Shown piece after piece: positions 16,591-52,870 of a stretch of 64,000 nt of DNA; position 1 is the first letter of the stretch, and the number at the start of each line of letters is the position of its first letter. The DNA is from Tsukamurella conjunctivitidis (GTDB taxonomy: Bacteria > Actinomycetota > Actinomycetes > Mycobacteriales > Mycobacteriaceae): positions 36,524 through 100,523 of the forward strand of contig NZ_VIGX01000013.1 of NCBI RefSeq assembly GCF_007858475.1. The letters run 5' to 3'. Position numbers and translations under genes: made by a program. The notes under the pieces were generated by a model. That model was not told the DNA's origin and made no database searches. It worked only from the letters and a program-made list of their open reading frames with translations.

Positions 16591-16594
16591 GCCG

Positions 16595-29987: not shown

Positions 29988-30049
29988 GGCGTGTTCTCCT
30001 TGGGGCGATGGGTTGGTCACGCGGCCTCGGTGCGGCGGCGCGGGTTCGT

Positions 30050-30718: not shown

Positions 30719-30787
30719 GCCCGCAACATTACATATTTCAATCACTCAACGCAATGTTGTAATGCTTGCCCAGGTGTAGTCTGCCCG

Positions 30788-32605: not shown

Positions 32606-32664
32606 CGCGGCCGTAACAGAAACGGCACCGTTCTCGTCACGAGCCGCACCTACCGTTCCCGGGC

Positions 32665-34146: not shown

Positions 34147-34211
34147 GCCGAGCCGCAGTGAACGACACGCCCAGGCCGTTCCCCCGGAAGAACGTGTCAA
34201 TCCGGGCCATC

Positions 34212-37532: not shown

Positions 37533-38746
37533 GACGCCTCCGCCCGGTCGACGGTGTCCACGGCGCCCGGTCCGGCAGCATCCGTCTCCGGGGAGCCGTC
37601 CGGCCGCAGCCGGGCGTTGAGGATCGTCACGAAGACCCAGCTCGCCAACGCCAGCCCGGCGGCAGCGAAAGCGATCGACGCGGCACTGCCCGTGGCCTCG
37701 AGGACCCGACCCCCGAGCAACGATCCACCGGCCGCGCCGACGCCGAACGCCGACATGTTGGCCGTCAATGCCACGTTCGGGGCGGCCGCCGCCGCAGTGA
37801 GCACTCGGGTCTGCAGCAGCGGGATGAGGGCGAAGGTCGCGACACCGAAGAACACCAGCGCCGCGACGGTGAGCGGTACACCGTGAGCGAGGCCGACCAA
37901 CGCGCAGCTCGCCGCGAAGGCGATACCCGCGGCGAGAAGGCGCGGCGGGAGCTTGCCGTTCGCGAGGCGGCCGCCGAGGACGTTCCCGCCCAGCGAGGCG
38001 ATGCCGTAACCGAACAGCGCGAGGGAGAATCCGAGTCCGGTGATCCCGGCGGCCTCGTCCAAGGTGGGCTGCAGGTAGGTGATGATGGCGAACATCGCGG
38101 CCGAATAGAGCGCGGTCGCCACCACCATGCCGCTCACCTGCGGTGCACGGAGCACGGCGAGTTCGTCGGCGAGCGTGGCTCCGCCGCCGTCGGCGTGCGG
38201 CTCGGGCGGCCAGACGGTCATGGCGATCAGGACACTCGCGACGGCTCCGAGCAGGCCGATCACCGCGAACGTCCAGCGCCATCCGGCGATGCCGCTGAAC
38301 CAGGTCCCGAGCGGGACGCCCACGACCGTGGCGAGGTTGATCCCGAACTGCATGGCCGCGACCGCGGAACCGGACTTGCCGGCCGGAGCCGAGCGCTCGG
38401 CCAGGATCACGACGACCGCCATCAGCGTGCCGTGGATTGACGCCGTGAGCACCCGACCGAGGAGGAGCACCGGGAAGGTGGGGGCGAGCGCGACGACGGC
38501 GGTACCCGCGGCGAACACCAGCAGCAGTGCGACGGCGACCGTACTCCGTCGGTATCGCAGTGTCACCGCGGTCACCGCCGGGCCGAGGAAGGCCATGGTC
38601 AGCGCGTACACGGTCACCGTCAGTCCGACGGTCGCGAGCGAGACGCCGAACCGGGTGGCGAGTCCCTGCAGGATCCCGCTCGGGATCAGCTCCGACGTAC
38701 CGACCGCGAAGATGGCGAGAATGAGGGGAAGTGCTCTGCGGCTCAT
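37529..38746 (-). CDS. MFS transporter between the two acyltransferases
   Basis: 405 residues, twelve membrane segments, of the AraJ/Cmx efflux type. It has LPLILAIFAVGTSELIPSGIL in TM1, the motif 'GRVLTASIHGTLMAVVVILA' and GKSGSAVAAMQFGINLATVVGVPLG. Such pumps export sugars or drugs. It overlaps both neighbours by four bases. Its position between two acyltransferases suggests export of, or self-protection from, the locus product. Confidence 0.83.
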   Translation of the reverse strand: MSRRALPLILAIFAVGTSELIPSGILQGLATRFGVSLATVGLTVTVYALTMAFLGPAVTAVTLRYRRSTVAVALLLVFAAGTAVVALAPTFPVLLLGRVLTASIHGTLMAVVVILAERSAPAGKSGSAVAAMQFGINLATVVGVPLGTWFSGIAGWRWTFAVIGLLGAVASVLIAMTVWPPEPHADGGGATLADELAVLRAPQVSGMVVATALYSAAMFAIITYLQPTLDEAAGITGLGFSLALFGYGIASLGGNVLGGRLANGKLPPRLLAAGIAFAASCALVGLAHGVPLTVAALVFFGVATFALIPLLQTRVLTAAAAAPNVALTANMSAFGVGAAGGSLLGGRVLEATGSAASIAFAAAGLALASWVFVTILNARLRPDGSPETDAAGPGAVDTVDRAEAS

Positions 38747-39939
38747 GCCACCGTCTCCGATCTCGCGACGGGCGCGGGTACGTGCGATCCGGGCGGGGCG
38801 GATGGGGACGGCGACACCGCTGCCTCGGGGCGCGCCCGTCTCCGTGACCACCGGGCGTAGGCGGGCTTCTCGACGAACGTGTAGAGGGCCGCACCGGCGG
38901 CGACGCTCACGGCGAGGTACAGCAGCTCGACGCCGATCGCGGCGGGGGCCTCGAAGGTCCTCGGCCCGAGGAGTTTCCGTCCCTCGACCAGGACGAGGGC
39001 GTGCACGAGATAGAAGCCGAACGAGATCTCCCCCAACCACTGCATTCGCCGGCCGCGCAGGAGGCTCGAGCGCCCCTTGAGATCACCATGTGCGACGGTG
39101 CCGATCAGCAGCACGACCGGCACGAGCATGGTGAGCCGGACGCCGACCAGGTACGGGGTCGCGTACGAGAGCGCGTAGAACGCCGGGAAGGCCGCGAGCA
39201 CCACTGCGATCGGCACCTGCCGCCACCGGCCGCGGACGAGGATCGTCCCCAGCACCAGGCCGGCGACGAAATCGAACAGGCGCGACGGAGGGAAGACGTA
39301 GCCGAACCAGTACTGCAGTTCGGACAACGGCAGATCGTCGGGCGTGTGCGGCGACGAGGGGAACAGGACGTACGCGAGCGCCACACTCACCCCGACGGCC
39401 CCGACCGCTGCCGCGAGGGCGGGCCACAGCGCACGGTCGGGAAGCCGGCGGATCAGCACGTAGACGAACGGGCAGCAGAGGTAGAAGAAGAGCTCCGTTG
39501 ACAACGACCAACTGGGCGGGTTGACGCTCAGGAAGGTCGCGTAATCGGGGACCCAGGTCTGCAGGAGCGTCACGTTCACGCTCGCCTGGGCGACTGTCGT
39601 GGTCGCGGCGGCGAACAGGACGAGTGCGATCGCCCAGGTCACGATGTGATTCGGGAAGATCTTGACGAGCCGGCGCCGCCAGAAGGCGCCCTTAGGCTCG
39701 CCCGGGCGGTCGATGTACGCCATGACGACGCCGGAGAGCACGAAGAAGAAGGTGACACCGAGACCGCCCGCGTAGCGCGCCGCCGTCGTGAACGCATCGG
39801 CGATGCCTCCCGTGTCGAAGACGGAGTTGGCGGGCTTCTGCAATGAGGCGTGGAACAGGAACACCGACAGCGCGGCGAAGAAGCGCAGACCGGTCAGCGA
39901 ATCGAGCCGAGGCCGAGGGCTGCTCGGCGCCGCGGTCAC
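38743..39939 (-). CDS. Acyltransferase 3 family membrane protein (copy 2)
   Basis: 398 residues, about ten membrane helices. It has DSLTGLRFFAALSVFLFHAS, GVTFFFVLSGVVMAY, FWRRRLVKIFPNHIVTW, and near the end MQWLGEISFGFYLVHALV. Paralogue of the gene at 36354 along most of its length. Two related acyltransferases in one operon suggest two acyl additions, or different donors or positions. GTG at 39939 lies in a GTGA overlap with the upstream MDR stop, and its own stop overlaps the MFS ATG. Confidence 0.85.
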   Translation of the reverse strand: MTAAPSSPRPRLDSLTGLRFFAALSVFLFHASLQKPANSVFDTGGIADAFTTAARYAGGLGVTFFFVLSGVVMAYIDRPGEPKGAFWRRRLVKIFPNHIVTWAIALVLFAAATTTVAQASVNVTLLQTWVPDYATFLSVNPPSWSLSTELFFYLCCPFVYVLIRRLPDRALWPALAAAVGAVGVSVALAYVLFPSSPHTPDDLPLSELQYWFGYVFPPSRLFDFVAGLVLGTILVRGRWRQVPIAVVLAAFPAFYALSYATPYLVGVRLTMLVPVVLLIGTVAHGDLKGRSSLLRGRRMQWLGEISFGFYLVHALVLVEGRKLLGPRTFEAPAAIGVELLYLAVSVAAGAALYTFVEKPAYARWSRRRARPEAAVSPSPSAPPGSHVPAPVARSETVA

Positions 39940-40844
39940 GACACCGCTCCGGGATCGGGTACGAGGAGGACCTTGCCCCGGCTCCCCTGTTCGACCCGGC
40001 GATGTGCTGCCGCCGCCTCGTCGAACGGGTAGACTGCCGCGACCGGGTGAACGTAGACCTCGCCCGCATCCACCGCGCGGACGACCTCGCGCAAATCCGC
40101 GGCGTCGACCTCGACACCGAGGTGGTGCAGCGCGAAATCACCCGGTTCGGGCAGCGCGAAGGTCGTGATGGACACGTACCTCCCTCCGGCGACGACCTGT
40201 CGCGCCGTCTCGGGCCGACCGGCGCAGTCGATGATCACGTCGAACGGCTGATCCTCCAGGTCGGCGTCGGTGAGCACCTCCGCCCCGTAACCGAAGTCGT
40301 CCACCGCGCGGCTCCACGTCGCGACGTCTTCGGCGCGGACCACGAGCGACAGGTGCGCGCCCGACCGGGCGGCGAACCCGGCGGCGAACTGCCCGACTCC
40401 GCCCTGCGCCCCGACGACGAGCACCCGCAGACCGGGCCCGAGGGCGGCGGCCCGGACCGCTTGCAGGCCCGTCAGCCCGGCGAGGGGAAGCGCGGCCGCG
40501 TCGCACAGGGGCACCGACGCCGGTGCCGGAGCGAGGAATCCGCCGTCGATCGCCACGACCTCCGCCGTGCTCCCGACACCGGTGCCGAGCTGGGCGGTGG
40601 TTCCGATCACGCGATCGCCGGGTACCCATCCGGTGGCCGGATCCGCCGACCGCACGACGCCCGCGAGGTCCCAACCCGTCACCGCCGGAGTTGGAGTCGG
40701 GATCAGGCCGGAACGGGTAGCTATGTCGACGGGGTTGACCGCCGCGGCGACGACGTCGACGACGACCGCTCCGTCGGGAACGGGCACGTCGACGACGTGC
40801 AGCACCTCGGGCGGGCCGGGCCGGTCGAAGACGACGGCCCTCAT
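39936..40844 (-). CDS. Zinc-independent MDR oxidoreductase (quinone oxidoreductase type)
   Basis: 302 residues. It has VNPVDIATRSG at the substrate site, GWDLAGVV in place of the GHE zinc block, and a NADP site VLVVGAQGGVGQFAAGFAARSG. There are no zinc ligands, so it is of the NADPH:quinone/enone reductase class that reduces activated C=C bonds or carbonyls. It is the first enzyme of the leftward operon. Its ATG overlaps the stop of a 27-codon upstream ORF (ATGA). Confidence 0.83.
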   Translation of the reverse strand: MRAVVFDRPGPPEVLHVVDVPVPDGAVVVDVVAAAVNPVDIATRSGLIPTPTPAVTGWDLAGVVRSADPATGWVPGDRVIGTTAQLGTGVGSTAEVVAIDGGFLAPAPASVPLCDAAALPLAGLTGLQAVRAAALGPGLRVLVVGAQGGVGQFAAGFAARSGAHLSLVVRAEDVATWSRAVDDFGYGAEVLTDADLEDQPFDVIIDCAGRPETARQVVAGGRYVSITTFALPEPGDFALHHLGVEVDAADLREVVRAVDAGEVYVHPVAAVYPFDEAAAAHRRVEQGSRGKVLLVPDPGAVS

Positions 40845-40924
40845 GCGTCCACTCCGTCAGTGCGACGGTCTGCGACGGGGCATCGCGCCGCGATCGTTCG
40901 GACGCGGTTAATGATCAGCGACAT
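40841..40924 (-). CDS. 27-codon upstream ORF coupled to the MDR gene
   Basis: Short ORF (MSLIINRVRTIAARC..., 27 residues) whose stop overlaps the MDR start in ATGA. An AGGAGT ribosome-binding site lies six bases before its ATG, better than most genes nearby. The peptide is basic and has one Cys. It may be a leader peptide that couples or controls translation of the operon, or a small functional peptide. Support is the strong ribosome site plus the exact overlap; no homologue is known to me. Confidence 0.5.
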   Translation of the reverse strand: MSLIINRVRTIAARCPVADRRTDGVDA

Positions 40925-41359
40925 GGGGAGACTCCTGAACGGATCGGACGGCGATCGCCGTCGTGCGTTGCGGTGCAACCGCACTCGTCTCCCGCGGCCC
41001 ACGCAACCACAACGCCGCCGAGCACGCAATCCCGGCAATCGTGACGCCGCTCACATTGACAGTCGCAACGGTCGTGGAGGACTCTCTTAGCAGCGGCAAT
41101 AGCCGCATCGCCCACGAGTCCCGCCCGACTCTGGAGCCCATCAGGACCGCGCCATCGGACATTCAGCCGTCCGGCCGTTCCTTCTCCCGCGCGACGTCTC
41201 CCACCAGCACGGCGCGTGAACACCACACTGCTCGAACCAGCTTGCTCCGCTGGCGCTCTGCGCCGGCCGGCGATCCCGTGCGTCCCCGCTCACCGTCGAG
41301 CGGGGCACTCCGGCATCCGTCGAACCGAACTCCGTCACCGACACCGATGGGACTTCGCG
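40925..41359. promoter_or_regulatory. Bidirectional intergenic region of the cyclitol locus
   Basis: 435 bases between the leftward operon and the EEVS gene. A TTGACA at 41056-41061 could be a -35 box for the rightward operon, but a good -10 at 17-18 bases is not clear. In-frame sequence upstream of the EEVS ATG is open back to 41216 but has no resemblance to the enzyme family. I see no regulator gene. A long leader for the EEVS mRNA is possible. Confidence 0.35.
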
Positions 41360-42592
41360 ATGCGAAACGGCACCAGATTCCAGCAAGGGCTCCACCACAC
41401 CGTCGTCGATCAGACCACGTGGACAGTCGAGGCGGTCAAACAGGTCCGATACCAGGTTGTCGAAGCGAACGGCCTGTTCCGGCCCGAGAACGACCGACTC
41501 CTCACAGCCTGCCCCGACGCGCAGATCCGGCGCGGCGACCGCCGCCTCGTCGTGATCGATCACTCCGTCGACCGGCTCCACGGCGATACGATCCGCGCCT
41601 ACTTCGACCACCACGGCATCGCGGCGACCGTCGTCCCGCTCCAGGCGCACGAAGCGGCCAAGCAGTGGGACAGCGTCACCCGCGTCGTCGATGTGATGAA
41701 CGCCTTCGGCATCGACCGCCGGCGCGAACCCGTCCTGGCGATCGGCGGCGGCGTCCTCACCGACGTCGTCGGCTTCGCGGCCAGCCTGTACCGCCGCGGC
41801 ACGCCGTACGTCCGCATCCCGACCACGCTGATCGGCCTCGTCGACGCGGGCGTCGGCGTGAAGACCGGCGTCAACTACGGAACCGGGAAGAACCGCCTGG
41901 GAACCTACGCCCCGGCGATGGCGACCTTCCTCGACCGGACGTTCCTGCGCACGGTCGACGCACGCCACCTCAGCAACGGGCTCGCGGAGATCCTCAAGGT
42001 CGCCCTAGTGAAATCGGCCGAGCTCTTCGACATCCTCGAAACCGCGGGTCGAGCCGTGCGCGACGACCGGTTCCAGGGCTCGACGACCGAGCTCGAATCG
42101 GCCGCGACGGTGATTATCGCCGAGGCGATCCACCTCATGCTCGAGGAACTCCAGCCGAACCTGTGGGAGTCCACGCTGGAGCGCTGCGTCGACTACGGGC
42201 ACACCTTCAGCCCGACGGTCGAGATGCACGCTCTCCCCGCACTGCTCCACGGGGAGGCCGTGAACGTCGACATGGCGCTGACCACCGCGATCGGGCGATT
42301 GCGCGGCGACGTGACCGAGGCCGAGGCCGAGCGGATCTACCGCGTGATGGAGGACCTCGACCTGCCGCTGTGGGACCCCTCCCTCGACACCCCCGACCTC
42401 CTCGTCGACGCGCTCACCGACACCGTGCGGCACCGCGACGGCCAGCAGCGGCTGCCCCTCCCCGTGGGAATCGGGCAGCACCGGTTCGTCAACGACGTGA
42501 CCCCGGAGGAGATCCGGCGCGCGCTGTTCGCGCTACGGCAACGAGCAGGCGCCGCCGGCGCCGTCGCCCGCACCACGAAGGAGAACGCATGA
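41360..42592 (+). CDS. Sedoheptulose 7-phosphate cyclase, 2-epi-5-epi-valiolone synthase type
   Basis: 410 residues of the dehydroquinate synthase fold. It cyclises sedoheptulose 7-phosphate to 2-epi-5-epi-valiolone with NAD and a divalent metal. Diagnostic blocks match what I recall of AcbC/ValA: VIDHSVDRLHGDTIRAYFDHHG, VLAIGGGVLTDVVGFAASLYRRGTP, TKTGVNYGTGKNRLGTYAPA-like KNRLGTYAPA, RHLSNGLAEILKVALVK, PNLWESTLERCVDYGHTFSP, ALPALLHGEAVNVDMALTT and RLPLPVGIGQHRFVNDVT. Metal ligands are in LAEILK (Glu), GHTFSP (His) and LLHGEAV (His). No aro genes adjoin it, against an AroB role. First gene of the rightward operon. Confidence 0.87.
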   Translation: MRNGTRFQQGLHHTVVDQTTWTVEAVKQVRYQVVEANGLFRPENDRLLTACPDAQIRRGDRRLVVIDHSVDRLHGDTIRAYFDHHGIAATVVPLQAHEAAKQWDSVTRVVDVMNAFGIDRRREPVLAIGGGVLTDVVGFAASLYRRGTPYVRIPTTLIGLVDAGVGVKTGVNYGTGKNRLGTYAPAMATFLDRTFLRTVDARHLSNGLAEILKVALVKSAELFDILETAGRAVRDDRFQGSTTELESAATVIIAEAIHLMLEELQPNLWESTLERCVDYGHTFSPTVEMHALPALLHGEAVNVDMALTTAIGRLRGDVTEAEAERIYRVMEDLDLPLWDPSLDTPDLLVDALTDTVRHRDGQQRLPLPVGIGQHRFVNDVTPEEIRRALFALRQRAGAAGAVARTTKENA

Positions 42593-43341
42593 GCAACACG
42601 CCCACCGCCGTCGTCGTCGGCGGCTCGACCGGTATCGGCCGCGGGATCGCCGATGCCTGGGCGGCATCGGGATTCGAGACCCACGTCTTCAGCAGGTCGC
42701 GGCCCACGGGGCCCGGCGGCGAGGCACTCCAGTGGCACCGCCTCGACTTCCGGGACCCCACCGAGGCGCGGACGGTCCTCGATGCCGAGGTGCCCGCGCG
42801 CGTCGACATCGCGTGCTACTCGTCCATCTACTTCACGCTTCGGCGCGAGAACTTCGTCGACGTGGCGCAGTCCGACTGGCTCGACCAGTTCGACATCAAC
42901 GTCCACGGCCTGTTCCACACTCTCCGCGCGACGCTCCCCGCGCTCCGGCGCGCGGCGCCGGGGCTGTTCCTGCACGTCTCGTCCGAGGTCGTCTACAACG
43001 CGGGCCCGGGCCGAGCGGGCTACACCGCCACCAAGGCCGCGGCCAGCGCCCTCATCGATTCCGTCTCCCAGGAGATCGATCCGACCGACGTCACCTTCGT
43101 CCAGACGCTTCCGGTCGGCATGGTCGACTCCCCGGGCATCCGCGCGCGACGTCCCGCCGACTTCGACTACAGCGGGTACATGACCCCCGCCGACTTCGGC
43201 CCGCTCGCGGCGCATCTCGCCGCGACCCGCGGGCGGGGCCACGCCTCGGAAGCGCTCGTCGTGCACGAGGACCGCACCTGGACATCCGTCTCCGACGGGA
43301 TTCCGCTGTCGCAGTCCCGACCGCTGACCACGCAGGGCTGA
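42589..43341 (+). CDS. SDR family oxidoreductase of the cyclitol operon
   Basis: 250 residues. It has the cofactor motif VVVGGSTGIGRGIADAW and an Arg-containing second strand (FSRSRP) that suggests NADP(H). The catalytic set is complete: HVSSEVVYNAG (Ser) and GYTATKAAASA (Tyr, Lys). The place of the NAG motif is taken by YSSIYFT. It is translationally coupled to the EEVS gene by ATGA. In acarbose biosynthesis an SDR (AcbN) acts on a valiolone-derived ring, and a similar reduction or oxidation of the cyclitol ketone is inferred here. Confidence 0.82.
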   Translation: MSNTPTAVVVGGSTGIGRGIADAWAASGFETHVFSRSRPTGPGGEALQWHRLDFRDPTEARTVLDAEVPARVDIACYSSIYFTLRRENFVDVAQSDWLDQFDINVHGLFHTLRATLPALRRAAPGLFLHVSSEVVYNAGPGRAGYTATKAAASALIDSVSQEIDPTDVTFVQTLPVGMVDSPGIRARRPADFDYSGYMTPADFGPLAAHLAATRGRGHASEALVVHEDRTWTSVSDGIPLSQSRPLTTQG

Positions 43342-43350
43342 GGGGACCCA

Positions 43351-43989
43351 ATGACGAACTCCACTCCTCCGGCGCTCCTTTTCGACATGGACGGGACTCT
43401 CGTCGACTCGACCGCCCTCGTCGAAGACACCTGGGGCGGCTTCGCCGCAGTGCACGGCCTCGACCTCACCACCGTCCTCGCCTTCGCACACGGGCGCCCG
43501 ACGGCGGCGACGGTCCACCACTTCCTCCGCGACCCCGATGTCGCCGACCGGGAGACCGCCCGGCTCGTCGCGCACGAGGAGGCGACGACCGAGGGCGTCC
43601 GCGAGGTCCCCGGGGCCCGTGCTGTTCTCGGCGGGCTTCCCCCGGAATCCTGGGCCGTCGTGACCTCGGCGAGCAGGACTCTCGCACGGAACCGGATGCG
43701 TGCCGCGGGCCTGCCGCTCCCCGGAGTGCTCGTGAGCGCGGACGACGTGGTGCGCGGCAAGCCGGACCCCGAAGGCTACCTCCTCGCGGCGAACGCGCTC
43801 GGCGTCGACATCACCTCGGCGGTCGTCTTCGAGGACTCCCCCGCCGGAGTACGCGCGGGACGGGCGAGCGGCGCGCGCACCGTCGTCATCGGCGCCCTCG
43901 CCGACTTCGACGCCGACCTCGAGCGCTACGCAGACTTCACCGCGCCCGCGCTGGTGACCGCCCTCCTCGGCACGCCGGCCCGCGCGTGA
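43351..43989 (+). CDS. HAD-superfamily sugar-phosphatase-like protein
   Basis: 212 residues with all HAD motifs: LLFDMDGTLVDS (nucleophile Asp), VVTSASR, RGKPDPEGY (Lys) and VFEDSPAGV. The cap is the small helical C1 type typical of sugar-phosphate and beta-phosphoglucomutase-like phosphatases. It probably removes the phosphate placed on the cyclitol by the next gene's kinase, as AcbJ/ValO-like phosphatases do. It is nine bases after the SDR and overlaps the kinase start by four. Confidence 0.83.
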   Translation: MTNSTPPALLFDMDGTLVDSTALVEDTWGGFAAVHGLDLTTVLAFAHGRPTAATVHHFLRDPDVADRETARLVAHEEATTEGVREVPGARAVLGGLPPESWAVVTSASRTLARNRMRAAGLPLPGVLVSADDVVRGKPDPEGYLLAANALGVDITSAVVFEDSPAGVRAGRASGARTVVIGALADFDADLERYADFTAPALVTALLGTPARA

Positions 43990-44996
43990 CAGTCGCGCCC
44001 ACGGCCCCGCCGCCCACCTCCGAGCCGGCCGGGGGGACTCGCTTCGCCGCCGACCTCGGAGGCACGTGGCTGCGGATCCGCCGGCGAGCGGACAGCACCG
44101 TCGAGCGGCGGCCCGCGCCGAGCCTGCTGAACTTCCCCGCCACCCCCGTCGACGAACTCCGCGCCCGCCTGGTGGATTCCCTCGCCCGTGCGGCTCCCCC
44201 GGCGGCCACTGCGGCGATCTCGTGCGGCGCCGCCCTCGACCACACCACCGGGGTCCTCTACGGGTCGGGGCCGCTGTGGGGCCCGACGGACGAGCCCTAC
44301 GACCTCGCCGGAGCGCTGCGGCGGGCCCGACCCGATGTCACGTGGACGCTCGTGAACGACCTGACCGCGGGCCTGGCGGATTTCGTCCACCGGCGCGCCG
44401 GATCCGACGCCCGTCGCGCCGCGTACCTCACCGTCAGCAGCGGCATCGCGCTCCGCACTGCCGACCTGCGCGAACGGACCATCCCCGTCGACGAGAACGG
44501 GCTGCAGGGCGAGGTCGGCCACCTGCCGGCCGCCTCCCCGATCGACGACGGTGACCCACTCGTCTGCGAGTGCGGCGTCGCGGGCCACGTCGCGGCCTAC
44601 TCGTCCGGTCCGGGGATCGAGCGGCTCGCGGGCCGCATCTGTGCCGAACCGGGTGCGGCGCGCTGGCTGACCGCAGCCCTCGGAGCGGACGACCCACGCG
44701 CACAACGGATCCTCCGCGCCGCGGTCGCCCCGATCGCGGGCCTGCTGCGCGCCGCGTGGTGCCTCGATCCGCACCTCGATGTCATCGGGATCGGCGGAGG
44801 CGTGGTCGACGGGATCGGGGCGCCGTACCGCACGGCACTGCTCGCGCAGCTCGGCAACGCCACCGGTTACGCCGACCGGGGATTCAGCCGGCGGTGGCTC
44901 GACCGCCGGCTCGTCTTCTGCACGGCCGGCGACGTCGACTGCCTGCGCGGCGCCGAGTTGATGCGCGACGACTTCCTGACGGTGGCTCCGGCATGA
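43986..44996 (+). CDS. ROK-family kinase (C7-cyclitol kinase-like)
   Basis: 336 residues. The ATP/phosphate-1 motif is FAADLGGTWLR; VNDLTAGLADF carries the catalytic Asp; GEVGHLPA follows. The zinc motif of ROK kinases appears as CECGVAGHV, with His where the third Cys (CxCGxxGC) is usual. In acarbose and validamycin pathways, AcbM and ValC, of the same glucokinase-like family, phosphorylate the 7-hydroxyl of the cyclitol. Context makes that role likely here, but a hexose kinase is not excluded. GTG start in a GTGA overlap. Confidence 0.8.
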   Translation: MTVAPTAPPPTSEPAGGTRFAADLGGTWLRIRRRADSTVERRPAPSLLNFPATPVDELRARLVDSLARAAPPAATAAISCGAALDHTTGVLYGSGPLWGPTDEPYDLAGALRRARPDVTWTLVNDLTAGLADFVHRRAGSDARRAAYLTVSSGIALRTADLRERTIPVDENGLQGEVGHLPAASPIDDGDPLVCECGVAGHVAAYSSGPGIERLAGRICAEPGAARWLTAALGADDPRAQRILRAAVAPIAGLLRAAWCLDPHLDVIGIGGGVVDGIGAPYRTALLAQLGNATGYADRGFSRRWLDRRLVFCTAGDVDCLRGAELMRDDFLTVAPA

Positions 44997-46072
44997 CCGC
45001 CCGCCACCGCGCCCTCGTCCGCCGCGCCCCCGACAGCGCGGGCCGAACCCTCGTCGACGTCGCCTCGGTACCGACCCCCGACCTGACCCGCGGCGACCTG
45101 CTCGTCGCACCCGTCGTCGCCGGGATCTGCGGGACCGACTGGCAGATCCTGCGCGGCGACCGGCCCGACCCCGCCGCGATCCTCGGTCACGAGGGCCTGG
45201 CGCGCATCGTTGCCGGGGAGGGCGCGTTCGCGGTCGGCGATCTCGTGACCGTCAACCCGACGCACCCGTCCGACCCTGGATTCCTTCTCGGGCACAACGT
45301 CCCGGGGCTGTGGTCGGAGCGCACCGTCGTCCCCGCGTCGGCCGTGGCCGCCGGGCTGGTCCTGCCCGTCACGGAGACACTTCCCGATCCGACTCTCGTC
45401 GGCGCCCTGGCGGAACCGCTAGCCTCGGCGATGTACGGGCTCGAGGTCGCCTCGTCGGTCACCGTGCCCAAGTCGCTGGTGGTGTGGGGGGACGGCATCG
45501 TCGGGCGGCTGGCGAGTGTGCTCTGGGCGCGCGCACTACCAGGCCTGCGCGTGCTCCGGGTCTCACGATCGGGCGCCGCGGATCCCGGTCTCGCCGGGCA
45601 GTTGCACGATCTACCCGGCCCGATCGCGGCCGTGCTCGTCACGCCCAGGTCGGGTACCGCCGGCGCCCTCGTCCACCTGGACCGCCACATCGACACCGAG
45701 TTGCTCGTCGACGTGCACGGCGGTATCGACGCCGGTCCGCTTCCGCTGCGCTGCGGCTCCGTCGACGTCGCGGAGGTGCGCGCCGGGAACTGCGGTGGCG
45801 AACCGCACACCCCCGTCCACGTCACCCTGCCGCGCCCCGGCGGAGCGCCGATCCACATCGTCGGGCATCGCGGCGTCGCCGGCCGGCACCTGCGCGCAGC
45901 GATCGACCTCCTCGCCACCGCTCCAGCGGATTTCGCCCCGGTCCTCACCCACGTGGTCGACCTCGACGGGGCCGCCGGCCTCATCAACGACGTTCTCTCG
46001 CGGGGCACCCGCGACCACGGGGGCCGCCGCGTCCTGAAGGCGGCTGTGCGCTTCGACGGGGCAGCATCGTGA
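44993..46072 (+). CDS. MDR-family alcohol dehydrogenase-like protein (one-zinc type)
   Basis: 359 residues. The catalytic-zinc blocks are AGICGTDWQ and ILGHEGLARIV, and ALAEPLASAMYGLE is in place. The structural-zinc lobe with four Cys is missing, replaced by THPSDPGFLLGHNVPGLW. The cofactor site VVWGDGIVGRLASVLW is a divergent GxGxxG. It most resembles glucose- and cyclitol-dehydrogenase-type MDRs (AcbL-like by context). Oxidation or reduction of one ring hydroxyl is expected. It is coupled by ATGA to the kinase and by GTGA to the next gene. Confidence 0.75.
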   Translation: MTARHRALVRRAPDSAGRTLVDVASVPTPDLTRGDLLVAPVVAGICGTDWQILRGDRPDPAAILGHEGLARIVAGEGAFAVGDLVTVNPTHPSDPGFLLGHNVPGLWSERTVVPASAVAAGLVLPVTETLPDPTLVGALAEPLASAMYGLEVASSVTVPKSLVVWGDGIVGRLASVLWARALPGLRVLRVSRSGAADPGLAGQLHDLPGPIAAVLVTPRSGTAGALVHLDRHIDTELLVDVHGGIDAGPLPLRCGSVDVAEVRAGNCGGEPHTPVHVTLPRPGGAPIHIVGHRGVAGRHLRAAIDLLATAPADFAPVLTHVVDLDGAAGLINDVLSRGTRDHGGRRVLKAAVRFDGAAS

Positions 46073-46866
46073 CGGCCGCCGGGTCGGCGCCGATCACCGT
46101 CGACGCACCGCAGTGGCGGCTCAGCGACGACCTCGCCGCCGCCGCTGCCGCCGCCCTGTCCGCGGGCGCGGACGGTCTGCAGCTCGACTTCGGTGGCGCA
46201 CACCGCGGGCCCCGCCTCGACCTGCCGGACCGACTCGCCGAGGCGCGCCGGCTGTCCCCCTCGATCCCCGTGACCGCGATCGCGGTCAACCACGCGAACG
46301 ACGTCGGCCTCGTCGCCGAGGACGGCACTCCGAACCCGGTCGCCGAGGAGTTGCTGCGGGCGGGGCTCCGGAGCGCCGTCGCGATCGGCGTTCCGGTGCT
46401 CCACGTCCCGGGCTTCCGCCGGAGCACGCCGTCGTCCCCCGCACGGATCACCGGCACGGCGTCTGTGCTGCGCGGGCTGGTCGACGACGCGGCACCTCAC
46501 GGTGTCGCCGTCGCCTACGAGTCCGCGCTCGACGGCCCCGCGAGCCGTGCGCTCGCCGAGGCCGTCTGGCGGAGCTCGCTCGGCCTGGTCCTCGACGTCG
46601 GGAACCTCCTCGACGCCGGGCATTCCCCGTGGTCGTTCCCCGCCGCTGTCGGACCGCGGCTTCACCGGTGCGTGCACGTCAAGGACGCCGTCACCCGGCC
46701 GGAGGCGCGGCCTGTCGCAGCCCTGCCGCTCGCGCCAGCAGTGCGCTCGGTGCTTGTCGAGAACGACTACCGCACAGCGCCCGAACGACTCGCGGCCGAC
46801 ATCTCTGCCGTCCGCATCCGGCTCTCGCACCCAATCGAAGGAGCATCATGCGCGCGATCACTCTGA
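46069..46866 (+). CDS. Sugar-phosphate isomerase/epimerase-like TIM-barrel protein (IolE/AP-endonuclease-2 fold)
   Basis: 265 residues. A metal site of the xylose-isomerase-like barrel can be traced: VAVAYESALDG (Glu), LVLDVGNLLDAG (Asp), CVHVKDAV (His) and LVENDYRT (Glu). The family includes inosose dehydratase IolE, inosose isomerase IolI and 3-epimerases, all working next to a ketone on a polyol. Here it could epimerise or dehydrate the cyclitol ketone, the step done by the unrelated VOC protein AcbO/ValD in known pathways. GTG in GTGA overlap. Confidence 0.75.
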   Translation: MTAAGSAPITVDAPQWRLSDDLAAAAAAALSAGADGLQLDFGGAHRGPRLDLPDRLAEARRLSPSIPVTAIAVNHANDVGLVAEDGTPNPVAEELLRAGLRSAVAIGVPVLHVPGFRRSTPSSPARITGTASVLRGLVDDAAPHGVAVAYESALDGPASRALAEAVWRSSLGLVLDVGNLLDAGHSPWSFPAAVGPRLHRCVHVKDAVTRPEARPVAALPLAPAVRSVLVENDYRTAPERLAADISAVRIRLSHPIEGASCARSL

Positions 46867-47888
46867 CCGCCCCGAACACCGTGGCCCTCGCCGAGATCCC
46901 TCCACCCACGGCCGGCCCGGGCGAGGCGCTCGTGCGCGTGACACTCCTCGGGCTGTGCGGCACGGATCTCGGGTTCTTCGACGGCAGCAGCAACTACCTC
47001 CGCGACGGACTCAAGTCCTACCCCTTCGTACCCGGTCACGAATGGGTGGGACGGGTCGTCGACGTCGGCGAGGGCGCGCCGCGGGACCTTGTAGGGATTC
47101 GGGTCGCGGGCCACAACTTCCGGCCGTGCGGGCGCTGTACCGAGTGCGCGCGGGGCCGGATCAAATACTGCCCCGATCGCAGCGAGATCGGCGTCCTCGG
47201 ACCGCTGCAGGGCGCCGGCGCGGAGTGGATCACCGTCCCCGTCGACAGCCTCCGCCGGATTCCGGACGCCATGTCGGACGCTGCCGCAACGCTTCTGGAG
47301 CCCACGGCCGCGGGGATGCACGCGGTGGAGCGGCTCGGCATCGGTTCCGAGGACCGGGTGGCCGTCCTCGGCGCCGGAACCCTCGGTCTAGCGGCGGCGC
47401 AGATCGTCCTGTCCCGCGGTGCTGACCTGTTGCTCTTCGATCCGAGCTCCGTTGCGCGAGCTCTCGCCGCAGACCTCGGGATTGTCGCTGTCGACGGTTC
47501 TCGCGAGGCAGACACCGGCGCCTTCGACGCGGTCATCGAGGCCTCGGGAAGCGAAGCGGCGGCGCGAACGGCGGTCGACCTCGTCGCCTCCGGCGGGCGG
47601 GTGGCGCAGCTGGGGACACCGCATCACGACGTGAACGGATACCCGGCGGCGACCCTCGTGATCCAGGACGCGACGCTGCACGGCGTGCTGTCGGGTGTCG
47701 GTTACTGGGACCCGCTCATCGAGCTCGTCGAATCGGGCGCGGTCGACCTGGACTCCCTGGTGGACACCGTGTATCCGCTTGCCGAGGTCGATCAGGCCTT
47801 CGCGCACCTGGCCTCCGGGGCGCGGGCGCGCCCAAAAGTCCTCCTATCGCTCGGACCGGAGACCACCGGCCCTGCGCCCCGGGCGTGA
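46848..47888 (+). CDS. Zinc-dependent polyol dehydrogenase (sorbitol/threonine dehydrogenase type)
   Basis: 346 residues. Catalytic zinc: GLCGTDLGFFDG and FVPGHEWVGRVV. Structural zinc: CGRCTECARGRIKYC. A metal/substrate Glu is in LLEPTAAGMHAV, and the Rossmann motif is VAVLGAGTLGLAAAQI. Such MDRs oxidise a secondary alcohol of a polyol or inositol with NAD(P). AAGGAG lies upstream of the ATG, which sits 19 bases inside the previous gene. It is the second MDR of the operon; the two differ in the structural zinc and so likely act on different positions. Confidence 0.83.
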   Translation: MRAITLTAPNTVALAEIPPPTAGPGEALVRVTLLGLCGTDLGFFDGSSNYLRDGLKSYPFVPGHEWVGRVVDVGEGAPRDLVGIRVAGHNFRPCGRCTECARGRIKYCPDRSEIGVLGPLQGAGAEWITVPVDSLRRIPDAMSDAAATLLEPTAAGMHAVERLGIGSEDRVAVLGAGTLGLAAAQIVLSRGADLLLFDPSSVARALAADLGIVAVDGSREADTGAFDAVIEASGSEAAARTAVDLVASGGRVAQLGTPHHDVNGYPAATLVIQDATLHGVLSGVGYWDPLIELVESGAVDLDSLVDTVYPLAEVDQAFAHLASGARARPKVLLSLGPETTGPAPRA

Positions 47889-47891
47889 ACC

Positions 47892-49103
47892 GTGTCGTCC
47901 ACCGAGACCCAGGAAACCTTGGACGCAGCAACACTGATCCGCCTCTCGCTCCTCGCGTGTGCAACCTTCATCTACGTCACCTTCGAGGTCTTCCCGGTCG
48001 GGCTGATCTCCGAGATCGCCCACGATCTCGGGCAGCCGGAGAGTCGGGTCGGGCTCCTCGTCAGCGGCTACGCCGTGGTGGCTGCGATCGTGACGATTCC
48101 ATCGGTGGCATTCGCCGCCCGGCTCTCGCGGGGCACGGCCCTGGTGTTGTCACTGGTGGTCCTTGTGATCGCCGAGTTGCTGACGTCCGTCGCGGTGAAC
48201 TATCCGATGATGGTCGCCAGCCGCGTGGTCGCGGCCATGACGCACGGCGTCCTATGGTCGCTGGTCGCGCCTGCGGCCGCGGCACTCGTGCCACCGAAGA
48301 AGGTCGGAGTAGCGACAGCGATCGTATTCGGCGGCCCGGCCCTGGCCGCGATCCTGGGAAGCCCCGGCACAGCTCTGCTCGGCGGCCTGGTCGGCTGGCG
48401 GAACACGGCGCTGATACTGGCAATCGCGACCGTCGCGATCACCATCGGCGTCGCATGGGCGGTTCACTCCCGTCCGGCGGCGTCGGCGGCGTCGGTCCAT
48501 GTCTCCGCCCCGGGCGCTCCGACACCGCTGATCGCCCAGTGGAACGTGATCGCGCTCCTTTGCATCCTGACTCTCGTCCTCGTCAGTGCACACTTCGTGA
48601 GCTTCACCTACTTCGCGCTGATCGTGGACGACGTGACGCGTTCCAGTGGCGGCACCGTGCCCTTCCTGGCGCTGTTCGGCGTCGCGGGCGCGATCGGCAC
48701 CGTCCTGGTCGGTCGATACACGGACCGGTCACCGCGCAGCACCGCGATCACAGCCTTCGCCATCTTCCTCACCGGTGCCGTGCTCCTCGCCGTCGGCCAG
48801 GCCGGCGGCCCGGCCACCATGCGATACGTAGTCCTCGCCTGCGCGGTCGTCGCGTGGGGTGCCGCGTACGCGGCAATCGGGCCGGTCCTGCAGTCCGGGG
48901 TTATCCGCGCGTCGGCGGCAGACGCGGACCGCGCCTCGTCGGTATACGTGACCTGCTATCAGGTGGGTATCGCCAGCGGCGCGGCAATTGGGGCGGCAAT
49001 CCTCAACCACTCGATCAGCGCGCTGCCACTGGTCAGCTCGCTGCTTGCCGCTGTAGCCCTGACCTTCACTGCATCTCCTCGATCCAGCGCCGCCTTTCGC
49101 TGA
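47892..49103 (+). CDS. MFS transporter, last gene of the cyclitol operon
   Basis: 403 residues, twelve membrane segments, DHA1 efflux type. It has LLACATFIYVTFEVFPVGLIS in TM1, SRVVAAMTHGVLWSLVAP, and AIGTVLVGRYTDRSPRS in the central loop. It begins with a GTG three bases after the dehydrogenase stop. Export of the cyclitol product or a precursor is likely. Codons near its end become less GC-rich, and no terminator hairpin is seen before the HTH gene. Confidence 0.83.
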   Translation: MSSTETQETLDAATLIRLSLLACATFIYVTFEVFPVGLISEIAHDLGQPESRVGLLVSGYAVVAAIVTIPSVAFAARLSRGTALVLSLVVLVIAELLTSVAVNYPMMVASRVVAAMTHGVLWSLVAPAAAALVPPKKVGVATAIVFGGPALAAILGSPGTALLGGLVGWRNTALILAIATVAITIGVAWAVHSRPAASAASVHVSAPGAPTPLIAQWNVIALLCILTLVLVSAHFVSFTYFALIVDDVTRSSGGTVPFLALFGVAGAIGTVLVGRYTDRSPRSTAITAFAIFLTGAVLLAVGQAGGPATMRYVVLACAVVAWGAAYAAIGPVLQSGVIRASAADADRASSVYVTCYQVGIASGAAIGAAILNHSISALPLVSSLLAAVALTFTASPRSSAAFR

Positions 49104-49514: not shown

Positions 49515-49835
49515 TCACCCGCCCCGACTCACCAGTACCGTGTGCGCCGGCGTCCACCCACGGCAGACGCCACCCGGGCAGAACCCGAGCACGGCGTGTT
49601 CGTACAGGGCATCGGGTGCCAAGTCGATGACGCCGGCCTCCGTCTCCCAACCGACCGTGCCGCCATCGCAGATCGCCGCCTCCGGGATCATCTCCTCGGC
49701 CAGGTGCGCGAACATGCCCGGCCTGCCGAGCAGGTACTCGAAGTCGTGGTCCGCCACCGCGCCGTCGGCGTGGAGCAGGCGCACCACGGTGCCGCCGCGG
49801 GACTCAACCGCCGTGATCGGCCACGGGACACTCAC
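49515..49835 (-). CDS. DUF2442-like small protein
   Basis: 106 residues. It has ITAVESRGGTVVRLLHADG at the start and CDGGTVGWETEAGVIDLAPDALYE later. This is the pattern of DUF2442 proteins, in which a beta domain ends in 'G.i.W..g.Dl.PD.L'. Some DUF2442 proteins are paired with toxin-like partners, but none is evident here. The start overlaps the stop of the upstream gene, so it is part of a minus-strand set with 49832-51469. Confidence 0.6.
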   Translation of the reverse strand: MSVPWPITAVESRGGTVVRLLHADGAVADHDFEYLLGRPGMFAHLAEEMIPEAAICDGGTVGWETEAGVIDLAPDALYEHAVLGFCPGGVCRGWTPAHTVLVSRGG

Positions 49836-50221
49836 GACTCGTCCTCCTCGTTCACCCGCTCGAGTTCGCCCTCGTGCTCGCCCCGCTGGATCGCCGCGGC
49901 CGGTCCCAGCTCGACCGGGCCGACGGGGGTGTACTCGCCGCGCTCGACCGACCTGCTCATGCCCTTCCAGTAGTTGTCATCCCGCTCCACCGCGGCGTGC
50001 TCCTCGCAGCGCGTCTTCACCCAGCCGCTCGGCAGCGTGACCTCGCGGCCGGGCTGGCCGCATTCCTCGCAGATCCCGCCGCTGCGCCGCTCCGCCGCGT
50101 CGAGCAGTTCCTGCGCGGCAGGGCTCCACGGCTCGATCGCGCCATCCAGCACTCCGTACTTCTCGCTCACCTGGATCAGCTCCGCGCCGACTGCGGCGAG
50201 GTCCCGCCGCAGCTCCTCCAC
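49832..50221 (-). CDS. Hypothetical protein with a zinc-knuckle-like motif
   Basis: 129 residues. The middle has CEECGQPGREVTLPSGWVKTRC, with CxxC...C plus a following His (EEHAA). A similar finger occurs in the 309-residue protein at 50540. The C-terminus is acidic. No family is recognised; this type is common in actinobacterial mobile elements. It overlaps the next gene by four bases. Confidence 0.55.
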   Translation of the reverse strand: MEELRRDLAAVGAELIQVSEKYGVLDGAIEPWSPAAQELLDAAERRSGGICEECGQPGREVTLPSGWVKTRCEEHAAVERDDNYWKGMSRSVERGEYTPVGPVELGPAAAIQRGEHEGELERVNEEDES

Positions 50222-50246
50222 CAGCGGCCGCCCCCTCTGCCGACGC

Positions 50247-50540
50247 TCATCGTCCCTCCCGACTCAGAACAACGGCTGTGATCGGCTCGCCGACTAGCTG
50301 AGGCCGCATTCCCCCGACCGTGTTCGTCCACTCGGAACCACGACCGTCGACCTCCTCGGCGGCGTCGGCCGGCGTCACGTACCGGCCGAGGTACGCCTGA
50401 GCTGCGCCGCGATCCAGCTCCTGGACCTCGGCAACGCCAGCGTGCGCCACCGCGGCGAACCCTGACTCGTAGCTGCTCACCAGCACCGGCATGTCACCGG
50501 GCAGACCGGCGAGCAGCGCGCGCAATTCACCAACGGTCAT
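50247..50540 (-). CDS. Hypothetical protein of phage/mobile-element type
   Basis: 97 residues. The start MTVGELRALLAGLPGDMPVLV is a pattern I have seen in many small proteins of actinobacterial prophages and integrative elements ('mTVgeLi..L..lpdd.pV'). Its role is not known. Its ATG shares one base with the upstream gene's stop (TGATG), so it is coupled to it. Confidence 0.6.
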   Translation of the reverse strand: MTVGELRALLAGLPGDMPVLVSSYESGFAAVAHAGVAEVQELDRGAAQAYLGRYVTPADAAEEVDGRGSEWTNTVGGMRPQLVGEPITAVVLSREGR

Positions 50541-51469
50541 CACGGCCGCACCTCCATCCGGACCGTCGACTCCGTCGCGTTGACATCGACGACATAGCGG
50601 CCGTCGCTCGATACGTCGAAACCCGCCTCCCGCAGCCGGTCTGCGGCGCCGGCATCCACGGCGAGCTCCATGTCCACGGTGGTGATCAGATGCGCAGCGA
50701 GCGCCTCGATGAACAGCAGCGCCGGTCCGGCGGGCGGCGTGATCCGAAGCCCGCCACCGTCGCGTTCCACCGCCGCGTCGGGGTAGATCGCGCGCCAGAA
50801 CCGCTCGCTGATTGCGAGGCTGTTGGTGATGAGGCGCAGCTTGCTGATGCCTTCCGGCTCCATCGCCCGCGCGTGCTCGACCACCTGCGCCGCGTAGTCG
50901 TGCTCCCCGCGTTCGTACAGGTCTGACGTCGAGCACCAGAGAGCGCGCGACGCGAGCTGAGAGACCGCATCGAGGTCACCCCCGGTGATCCGCCTGTTCG
51001 CATCCGGCGGCAGCGACCTCAGCGTGCGATGCAGCGCGGCGGCCTGCATCGCGACACGGTGCAGACTCGCGCGGGTCTCCAGGTCGCTGCTCACCGCCTC
51101 GTACCCCTCCTGCGCTGCGGCGGCGCACTGACCGCAGAGCCGGCACACGTTGCCATCGCGCGACACATGCAGCACGCCCGCGGCGCCGCACGCCTCGCAG
51201 ATGTGGGACGCGCGCCGCTCGGCGTCCCGGATCAGCGCCCGCATCTCCTGGTAGCGGTCGCTGTGGGCAGTGTCGACGCGAACGTCGAGCTCGCCGCACT
51301 CCTGCTTGATCTGGTGCACCACGTAGGCCGGGTCGACCTCGGCGAGCGCCTTGTCGAGGTCGATCAGGATCGAGTGCCAGCCGGGGCCAACGCCGATGTA
51401 CTTCCCCCGGGCCTCGGCGATCCGGTTCAGGATCGGCGTCAACTCCGGGTATTGGTCCTCGTCGTTCAT
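50540..51469 (-). CDS. Hypothetical protein, 309 residues, with zinc-binding region
   Basis: The protein is helical at the N-terminus, then carries CEACGAAGVLHVSRDGNVCRLCGQC in two Cys clusters near residues 90-115. A ligand- or DNA-binding region of unknown type follows (ALWCSTSDLYERGEHDYAAQVV). No catalytic motif is recognised. It is the first gene of the minus-strand set and diverges from the plus-strand set at 51602 with a 132-base spacer, where their promoters should lie. Confidence 0.55.
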   Translation of the reverse strand: MNDEDQYPELTPILNRIAEARGKYIGVGPGWHSILIDLDKALAEVDPAYVVHQIKQECGELDVRVDTAHSDRYQEMRALIRDAERRASHICEACGAAGVLHVSRDGNVCRLCGQCAAAAQEGYEAVSSDLETRASLHRVAMQAAALHRTLRSLPPDANRRITGGDLDAVSQLASRALWCSTSDLYERGEHDYAAQVVEHARAMEPEGISKLRLITNSLAISERFWRAIYPDAAVERDGGGLRITPPAGPALLFIEALAAHLITTVDMELAVDAGAADRLREAGFDVSSDGRYVVDVNATESTVRMEVRP

Positions 51470-51601
51470 GCCCCGATCATCGTCGCAGGGGCTGACAGTG
51501 TCGACGGCGTTTCCGATGCAGGCTACGGATGCACCTGCGTCGAAACCTGCAGCCGCTCATGGCCGGTGGAACTCGTCAGCCGCTCAAGAGAGGATCAGCG
51601 C

Positions 51602-52180
51602 ATGACGGACGACAGCCGCATCACCGCGCAGACCACTGACCGCGAGCTCGCCCGCCTCGCCTCCACCGACGAGGCACGCCAGGAGCTCGAGCAGCGGCGC
51701 CGGCAGCTCCGGGCAGCGGGCACTGTGCGCGCGGCGGAAGCGCTCATCGACATGCTCGCGACACCGAGGTCGCCCGCCGAGCTGGACCTGATGACCGCGG
51801 TGGCGGAAGCGATGCTGCACCACCCGATGCCTGGGCTGAGGACGAAGCTCGACGACATCGCCCGACAGCAGGCCAAGCAGCATTCGCCGGGCGACCTCGT
51901 CACCCAGCTCGGCCAGATGCTCACCGACGCCGAGGCGCGTGATGACCGCGCCGGGGCAGCGTGGGCCAGGTACTCCCTCGCCCACGCGATCAGAACGAAC
52001 GCCCAGATGCAGGCGGTCGCGGACTTGCTCCTCGCGCTGATTCCGGAGAGGGAGCGGGGCGCACTCACCGCGCTGGTGGTCGCCGAGGCCATCCCCCGGA
52101 TCACGGCTGCGGTGGACGCCGCGGTCGCGGAGGCGAAGCGCGTCGCGGACGAGCTGACGTCGGAGGCGGATCATGGCTGA
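51602..52180 (+). CDS. Hypothetical helical protein
   Basis: 192 residues, Ala/Glu/Arg-rich with long helices (LARLASTDEARQELEQRRRQ, DAAVAEAKRVADELTSEAD). A coiled-coil character is likely. An AGAGGATCAG lies upstream of the ATG. It overlaps the next gene by eight bases. First gene of a four-gene plus-strand cassette whose last three members are partly duplicated at 59439-60360. Confidence 0.55.
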   Translation: MTDDSRITAQTTDRELARLASTDEARQELEQRRRQLRAAGTVRAAEALIDMLATPRSPAELDLMTAVAEAMLHHPMPGLRTKLDDIARQQAKQHSPGDLVTQLGQMLTDAEARDDRAGAAWARYSLAHAIRTNAQMQAVADLLLALIPERERGALTALVVAEAIPRITAAVDAAVAEAKRVADELTSEADHG

Positions 52181-52667
52181 GACCGAGTTCTACCACCGCC
52201 TCGTCGCGCTGCTCGACGCCGTCGACGCCGAGATGGCTATGGTTCACGAACAGGTGCTGAACCTGATGCGAAAGGGAGCGCCGGAGCATCGATTTGACGT
52301 TTCGATGCGAGTCTCCGGTCGCCTGGAAGAGCTCATGGAGGCCGTCGACGAGCTGCACGGCTATTACGAGCTGCACCCGGCCGCGCTCGCCGCGCGTGCC
52401 GACCGCGTCGTCCTCGTCGAGCGCAGCGGGCCCGAGCTGGTCGAGAGCACCTACTCGATCGAGGAGTGGCGCACCCGCGGTCCGGCGATCCTCACCGCAG
52501 CGCTTCGCCTCTGGGACGTCGCAGGAGGACAGGTTCGCCTCTCGGGCAGCTACCTGCGCGGGCGCGGCACCGTCTACACGCAGAGCGGCAGCTACACCGC
52601 ACGTGCGTGGTACGCGGCCGATGCCGAGGGCGCCATCTGGCCCGAGAACGAGGAGTCCACGCAGTGA
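52173..52667 (+). CDS. Hypothetical protein, cassette A gene 1 (intact copy)
   Basis: 164 residues. The N-terminal half is helical (FYHRLVALLDAVDAEMAMVH); the C-terminal half is beta-rich (AALRLWDVAGGQVRLSGSYL, VYTQSGSYTARAWYAAD). The C-terminal 75 residues recur in truncated form at 59439-59660. No family is recognised. It is coupled to the small membrane protein by a GTGA overlap. Confidence 0.55.
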   Translation: MAETEFYHRLVALLDAVDAEMAMVHEQVLNLMRKGAPEHRFDVSMRVSGRLEELMEAVDELHGYYELHPAALAARADRVVLVERSGPELVESTYSIEEWRTRGPAILTAALRLWDVAGGQVRLSGSYLRGRGTVYTQSGSYTARAWYAADAEGAIWPENEESTQ

Positions 52668-52870
52668 CCGCCGCAGCGGAGCGCACCGCACTCCTCGCCG
52701 CTGCGGTCGCCGTGGTGCTGCTCCTGGTCGCCGGCCTCGGCGCGGCGTTCATCGCCCCCGAGTGGCTGTCCCTCTACACGCCCGCATTCGTGCTGCCCGT
52801 GCTCGCGCAGGGTCTCGCGACCGGACTGCGCTGGCGCGCCTGTGATCCCGTGAGCAAGGAAGCACTGTGA
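52664..52870 (+). CDS. Small membrane protein, cassette A gene 2
   Basis: 68 residues with two hydrophobic segments (LLAAAVAVVLLLVAGLGAAFI and LYTPAFVLPVLAQGLATGL) and a basic end. GTG start in a GTGA overlap. A close copy is at 59657. Possibly a membrane component that works with the two soluble cassette proteins. Confidence 0.55.
   Translation: MTAAAERTALLAAAVAVVLLLVAGLGAAFIAPEWLSLYTPAFVLPVLAQGLATGLRWRACDPVSKEAL

Follow-up and report, generated by a model that had tools for sequence, protein, structure and literature searches.

A divergent 13-gene cluster of Tsukamurella conjunctivitidis predicted to make an O-acylated C7 carbasugar

Among the closest described relatives of the locus reported here is the cyclitol module of the acarbose pathway. 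According to excerpts of two papers (PMC7081202, PMC9200736), AcbM is the 7-kinase and AcbO the 2-epimerase, AcbL converts 5-epi-valiolone 7-phosphate to valienone 7-phosphate, AcbN converts the latter to valienol 7-phosphate, and AcbJ takes off the 7-phosphate. In the published numbering (excerpt of PMC6599336), acbK-M-L-N-O-C are the consecutive genes ACSP50_3602 to 3607. We analyzed a 64,000-nucleotide stretch (the window) of Tsukamurella conjunctivitidis (assembly of 5.07 Mb in 343 contigs; contig NZ_VIGX01000013.1, positions 36,524 to 100,523, forward strand) that carries a 2-epi-5-epi-valiolone synthase (EEVS)-type gene cluster. The cluster comprises 13 genes in two divergent arms (window positions 35590 to 49103): an eight-gene plus-strand operon headed by the cyclase and five minus-strand genes that include two acyltransferases. 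A first-pass annotation had placed the cluster at 41360 to 49103, which proved too short, as it runs on to 35590 on the other strand. The enzyme families, the conserved catalytic-type residues, the co-occurrence across genera, and the acarbose-module order are direct observations. From them we propose, with a probability of about 0.7, that the cluster makes and exports an O-acylated C7 carbasugar of the valienol/valienone type.

The eight plus-strand genes were all found present, open, intact, and contiguous (41360 to 49103), and Pfam bore out the families claimed for them (DHQ_synthase, adh_short, HAD, ROK, ADH_N, AP_endonuc_2, ADH_N plus ADH_zinc_N, and MFS_1). Their junctions, previously described as under 10 bases, include 4-base overlaps and gaps of 9 and 3 bases; the exception is the overlap of 19 bases between the TIM barrel and MDR2 genes. 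We took as relatives the best 80 of 103 EEVS loci found, each named and with up to 10 kb on each side of the cyclase. The eight genes recur in the same order in 13 of these 80, far above chance, and in L018, which departs from the shared order by a fusion of MDR2 to an acyltransferase and by an extra inserted hydrolase gene. All eight are intact in Tsukamurella ocularis, the nearest named relative in our searches (cyclase identity, 93%), with dN/dS ratios of 0.08 to 0.29 between the two species.

The cyclase (41360 to 42592, plus strand) carries PF01761 and PF24621. Its best solved-structure match was 4p53 (413 bits; listed as Cyclase), which we take to be ValA, followed by 5tpr (275 bits; listed as 3-dehydroquinate synthase), presumably DDGS; 2-deoxy-scyllo-inosose synthase (DOIS; 2d2x) scored 80 bits. 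It is 54.7% identical to ValA, 42.0% to DDGS, 26.6 to 31.3% to two AroB proteins, and 59% to the cyclase of the acb-like locus L058, and it has GHTFSP at the place of GHTFGH in AroB 3okf. In a tree of 85 rows (the window, the 80 named loci, and four references, with DOIS and EVS references left out), the AroB rows split off at 100/100 and DDGS fell outside at 99/87, while ValA lay inside with the window cyclase. The identities and the tree placement rule out AroB and DDGS, and DOIS, compared by score only, is disfavored (80 bits against 413 for ValA). The earlier suggestion of an EEVS-like cyclase therefore stands, and by sequence the enzyme is EEVS-type. The genome's second DHQ-synthase-family gene, on contig C278, is presumably the housekeeping aroB. 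The tree has an open fork between the window pair, 12 Streptomyces-type rows, and a group formed by L018/L019 and loci with KASIII-like genes. In a plasmid search, all matches to the cyclase were below 60% identity. Many genomes of the same family (L091 to L112 among them) hold a more distant cyclase relative, at about 40 to 45% identity.

Five operon genes (cyclase, ROK, TIM barrel, MDR1, and SDR) match acbC-M-O-L-N by family, so the core chemistry of the operon would be largely precedented. L058 (Actinoplanes sandaracinus) has its matches of the window ROK, MDR1, SDR, TIM barrel, and cyclase in an unbroken run ordered M-L-N-O-C. A PfkB-family protein occupies the acbK place ahead of this run, and a GT5-like protein, a Cof-type HAD, and an NTP-transferase are encoded nearby. 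With L058 as the stand-in, the AcbC, M, O, L, and N homologues of an acarbose-type valienol 7-phosphate module thus occur together in the window, where the operon order in acb letters is C-N-HAD-M-L-O. An acb-like set may also exist outside the actinobacteria: cyclase, ROK, MDR1, SDR, and TIM genes lie in one stretch of a Salinicola metagenome-assembled genome, a candidate gammaproteobacterium by its title (L080:10001-15108).

In the proposed route, the cyclase would turn sedoheptulose 7-phosphate into 2-epi-5-epi-valiolone. The AcbM-like ROK kinase (43986 to 44996, plus strand; PF00480; 43% identical to the protein at the acbM place of L058; D125, C194, and C196 invariant in 19 sequences) is the predicted cyclitol 7-kinase and would phosphorylate this compound at position 7, after which the TIM barrel would epimerize C2. 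Dehydration to valienone 7-phosphate is the predicted step of the AcbL-like MDR1 (44993 to 46072, plus strand; PF08240 only; 44% to the protein at the acbL place; C46, H66, and E141 invariant in 19 sequences). The AcbN-like SDR (42589 to 43341, plus strand; PF00106; 61% to the protein at the acbN place; Y145 and K149 invariant in 19 sequences) is the predicted valienone 7-phosphate reductase and would yield valienol 7-phosphate. A HAD-IA phosphatase (43351 to 43989, plus strand; PF00702/PF13419; nearest NCBIfam model PRK11587 sugar phosphatase, below its cutoff) is predicted to be the cyclitol 7-phosphatase that dephosphorylates valienol 7-phosphate. The zinc alcohol dehydrogenase MDR2 (46848 to 47888, plus strand; PF08240 plus PF00107; C37, H64, C94, C97, C100, and C108 invariant in 14 sequences) is predicted to oxidize a ring alcohol of the free cyclitol. 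The last gene encodes an MFS transporter (47892 to 49103, plus strand; PF07690; nearest NCBIfam models sugar-efflux and Cmx, below their cutoffs), likely an exporter. The predicted core product is valienol/valienone. By analogy, we infer that the homologues perform the AcbC, M, O, L, and N steps, and we infer all steps after valienol 7-phosphate, including the acyl groups and their positions.

The TIM barrel (46069 to 46866, plus strand; PF01261; 265 residues) is 38% identical to the protein at the acbO place of L058. Its E151, D176, H203, and E231, which we assume bind metal, are kept in 23 of 23 sequences of one alignment and in 24 of 24 of another, so that the AcbO-type combination of a xylose-isomerase-like fold and a conserved E-D-H-E set is present. 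The predicted structure (pLDDT, 92.5) best matched L-xylulose-5-phosphate 3-epimerase, then allulose and tagatose 3-epimerases and others; IolE proteins were also listed. The protein had been called epimerase/dehydratase-like. The first half of that label is kept, as an AcbO-type 2-epimerase is more likely on these comparisons, and the second is not, since the AcbL-like MDR1 is the better candidate for the dehydration. An inosose-dehydratase-like enzyme, which the fold alone would also fit, is disfavored by the match to the acbO place. Of the 80 loci, 27 held a TIM-family gene and 39 a VOC-family gene (40 at E < 1e-3), with 0 holding both and 13 neither (P = 2.5e-11 by Fisher's test). The VOC proteins of these loci are presumably ValD/CetB-type epimerases. 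Should the alternation be confirmed, it would clearly show one step being served by either of two unrelated folds. A valD mutant served as the source of 2-epi-5-epi-valiolone (excerpt of PMC7081202).

The five minus-strand genes directly upstream of the operon (35590 to 40844) encode a QOR-like MDR, AT3a, MFS2, AT3b, and an alpha/beta hydrolase. They are separated from the operon by 515 bases (40845 to 41359; 91.4% identical to T. ocularis over 443 columns) that likely hold the promoters of both arms. AT3a (38743 to 39939, minus strand) and AT3b (36354 to 37532, minus strand) belong to the acyltransferase-3 family PF01757, with scores of 108.8 and 87.0 bits against a curated cutoff of 31 bits, and R19 and H30, the R/H pair expected of the family, are kept in 16 sequences. 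The two are 45% identical to each other, and AT3b is 46 to 60% identical to its best cluster relatives in Streptomyces. The enone-reductase-like QOR-like MDR (39936 to 40844, minus strand; PF13602 plus PF08240) has as its nearest solved relative the strawberry ripening-induced protein 4ida, which we take to be an enone reductase. The second transporter, MFS2 (37529 to 38851, minus strand; PF07690), has an uncertain start codon and overlaps AT3a. The esterase-like hydrolase (35590 to 36357, minus strand; PF00561) is nearest to the carboxylesterase 8qzu among solved chains, with S93, D209, and H236 invariant in 9 sequences. In our proposal, the two acyltransferases would esterify the cyclitol, the QOR-like MDR and the hydrolase would trim or detoxify the product, and the two MFS pumps would export it. 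The same arm is present in T. ocularis (dN/dS, 0.06 to 0.22 for its genes), and all 13 genes of the cluster are under purifying selection (0.06 to 0.29).

The better of AT3a and AT3b is 40 to 60% identical to full-length cluster acyltransferases outside Tsukamurella, with one exception at 35%. Of the 10 PF01757 matches in the genome (9 above the cutoff), two lie in the arm and a third elsewhere in the window (13051 to 14193). The cluster acyltransferases scored at least 157 bits against full-length cluster members and at most 65.5 bits against the eight others of the genome; by these scores they are a subfamily of their own. In a PF01757 search of 16 host genomes, most had two or more AT3 matches adjacent to the operon, as read from the match positions.

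We defined 15 acyl-type loci: the 13 that keep the full eight-gene order, together with L018 and with L019, which is truncated by a contig end. A 16th candidate, L028, was dropped, as it holds a TreT-type glycosyltransferase and neither AT3 nor KASIII; the group labels of the cyclase tree still count it as acyl-type, and the gene counts do not. Longer sequence was examined for 11 of the 15. All 15 carry AT3; the hydrolase is present in 14, QOR likewise in 14 (with weak matches in L015 and L016), and MFS2 matches strongly in 13. L006 and L019 run into contig ends, a possible reason for the genes they lack. Streptomyces, Kitasatospora, and Kribbella are among the genera in which the arm families lie beside the operon. 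In the Streptomyces-type relatives, AT3, the hydrolase, and MFS2 lie mostly downstream on the operon strand, and QOR lies downstream or upstream. In L018 (positions 15683 to 17926), an AT3 domain and MDR2 share one 747-residue frame, followed by a small serine-hydrolase gene. Upstream of three Streptomyces-type loci (L004:8115-9776, L006:7857-9850, and L018:6744-9846) are genes for a MAB_1171c-family membrane protein, a small protein of no named family, and a weakly HTH-like protein, perhaps regulators; they are not among the neighbors in the two Tsukamurella loci.

Next, we considered acyl-transfer genes in EEVS loci at large. With a threshold of 110 bits, 55 of the 80 loci had such a gene at most 10 kb from the cyclase (AT3 of this subfamily in 33, KASIII-like in 27). 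As markers of glycosyl and nucleotidyl transfer we used two seeds, the TreT-type glycosyltransferase of L031 and the NTP-transferase of L074. The test was confined to these two families, so that its counts include neither aminotransferases nor, for example, the GT5-like protein of L058. The two seeds occurred in 0 of the 55 acyl-transfer loci and in 14 of the 25 others (P = 3e-9 by Fisher's test). Conversely, MDR2 was found in 37 of the 55 versus 1 of the 25, and QOR in 36 versus 1. The resulting two-branch picture of EEVS loci is a strong pattern, short of proof. In 12 loci (L011, L013, L014, L017, L020 to L025, L029, and L081, from Nocardia, Rhodococcus, Nesterenkonia, and some Streptomyces), a KASIII-like protein and a VOC protein replace AT3 and the TIM barrel, with Pfam annotation done on L011. 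A more speculative extension, which we hold to be tentative and rather doubtful, is that EEVS metabolism consists of two mutually exclusive branches, one leading to nucleotide-activated pseudosugars and an overlooked one leading to esters through AT3 or KASIII. Acylation might here arm the cyclitol: the C7 ester would act as a leaving group, giving a reactive exocyclic enone (a COTC-like warhead) that the QOR-like enzyme reduces, whether to protect the producer or to yield methyl carbasugars, gabosines for example. The reading of acylation as a leaving group, with the enone handled by that enzyme, follows from its proximity to 4ida.

Several observations weigh against an acylated valienol-type product. 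The tree-paired contrasts between acyl-transfer loci and others point in the same direction as the counts but are few (6 pairs), and none is significant (median P of 0.25 for the two seeds, 0.0625 for MDR2, and 0.25 for QOR). The TIM/VOC pairing gave a mean of 4.2 informative contrasts, all opposite, also not significant (median P = 0.125). In the cyclase tree, the acyl-type loci do not form a single clade. AT3 proteins can acylate other targets, such as cell-surface sugars. The acarbose cluster of Actinoplanes sp. SE50/110 was represented by L058, and the phosphatase departs from the acarbose module: the window HAD and the Cof-type HAD of L058, taken as acbJ from its gene place, share only 9-residue chance matches. 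We dropped the window HAD as an AcbJ orthologue; it belongs to another HAD subfamily and is therefore an analogue at best.

The absence of sugar-joining genes had been read as a sign of a free or simply decorated C7 cyclitol. That absence held: a scan of 28 window proteins in the span 26940 to 56180, which also has a few small unscanned open reading frames, found no glycosyltransferase, nucleotidyltransferase, or aminotransferase. The free-cyclitol part of the claim is only partly supported, because decorating genes sit on the other strand just upstream. The eight-gene operon alone might still make free valienol, valienone, or valiolone, exported by its MFS protein, with the minus-strand arm as an unrelated neighbor. 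The operon does have its own phosphatase and exporter, and the acarbose producer releases valienol and 1-epi-valienol as shunt products (excerpt of PMC7081202). We nevertheless consider a bare end product unlikely, because the arm genes share the intergenic region, are divergent, and are conserved operon partners; members of the arm families are found next to the operon in further genera too, where their order and strand differ, and L018 fuses AT3 to MDR2.

The glycosyltransferase and nucleotidyltransferase used by acb-type pathways might instead be encoded elsewhere in the genome, which is spread over many contigs, and the cluster would then make a precursor of a pseudo-oligosaccharide or pseudoglycoside. 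This we judge very improbable: neither seed occurs in any of the 15 acyl-type loci, different genera carry the cluster as a unit, and no second kinase of the AcbU kind is among the 13 genes. The slimmest chance goes to a different core cyclitol, made if the cyclase were a 2-epi-valiolone synthase (EVS) or another sedoheptulose 7-phosphate cyclase subtype. EVS is a close cyclase alternative that the tree references lack, and this too counts against our proposal; on the other side stand the identities to the L058 cyclase and ValA and the partner enzymes, which are those of the 2-epi-5-epi-valiolone route. An O-acylated valienol- or valienone-type product thus remains our preferred reading.

Within Tsukamurella, the cyclase and TIM genes occurred in 2 of 16 genomes. 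In genome G070, the left flank (31724 to 34148) and right flank (49519 to 52670) of the cluster lie about 4.1 kb apart (L144:9090-13188) with other DNA between, and this DNA gave no blastn match to the cluster longer than 300 bases. In T. ocularis, the left-flank gene is on the opposite side of the cluster. We regard the cluster as a likely accessory block. At 71.1%, its G+C content is close to the 70.1% of the window. Farther out (26940 to 31516), a PaaX-like regulator lies beside an alternating series of two MPAB/Lcp-type oxygenase-like and two enoyl-CoA hydratase genes.

The pairing of ring-making enzymes like those of the pathway to the diabetes drug acarbose with enzymes that attach acyl groups, rather than join sugars, points to acylated carbasugars, a family little explored so far, that this Tsukamurella would share with soil actinobacteria. 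The EEVS-related pathways met in our literature search lead to pseudosugars, sunscreens, or products not known, yet acyl-transfer genes occur in 55 of the 80 loci. If our proposal is true, the genes for a class of acylated carbasugars could be found across actinobacteria, and the cluster would offer a compact means of making valienol-type building blocks as well as esters of them. Gabosines, COTC, and rancinamycins are C7 carbasugars, some of them esters, and are related compounds; Streptomyces cellulosae, which carries the cluster as L015, is a gabosine species. The likeness makes these compounds a lead only. In a literature search that left subscription journals mostly outside, we found no gene cluster tied to gabosines, COTC, or rancinamycins and no product for an acyltransferase-bearing EEVS cluster. 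The core of the cluster is precedented, and for its acyl branch that search turned up no described cluster.

Among other systems, Streptomyces lincolnensis, from which carbasugars have been isolated, has a predicted C7-cyclitol cluster with AcbL-like and phosphatase genes (excerpt of PMC10717218), both in common with the window cluster; judged by analogy with L031 (Streptomyces cyaneochromogenes), it would be of the acb-like type with a TreT-type glycosyltransferase. The ebo operon (EboA-F) is also small, combines a sugar phosphate cyclase with a xylose-isomerase-like TIM barrel, and has been proposed to make a cyclitol derivative (excerpt of PMC5133447). It resembles the window cluster in these respects, but EboD forms a separate cyclase clade, and EboC is a UbiA prenyltransferase (same excerpt), with no such gene among the 13 described here. 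Also related are the uncharacterized type-2 EEVS loci of Rhodococcus, Nocardia, and some Streptomyces (e.g., L011 and L021), whose cyclases fall in the same supported 35-row clade as the window cyclase. They share HAD, ROK, MDR1, MDR2-like and QOR-like MDRs, MFS, and an acyl-transfer-type enzyme with the window cluster and differ in having KASIII-like for AT3, VOC for the TIM barrel, and an added luciferase-like protein. The acarbose module of Actinoplanes sp. SE50/110 has counterparts of the cyclase, ROK kinase, TIM-barrel epimerase, MDR, and SDR. Unlike it, the window cluster has another kind of HAD, the order C-N-HAD-M-L-O instead of M-L-N-O-C, and no glycosyltransferase, NTP-transferase, or aminotransferase found; to the shared core it adds MDR2, QOR, two AT3 proteins, a hydrolase, and two MFS transporters.

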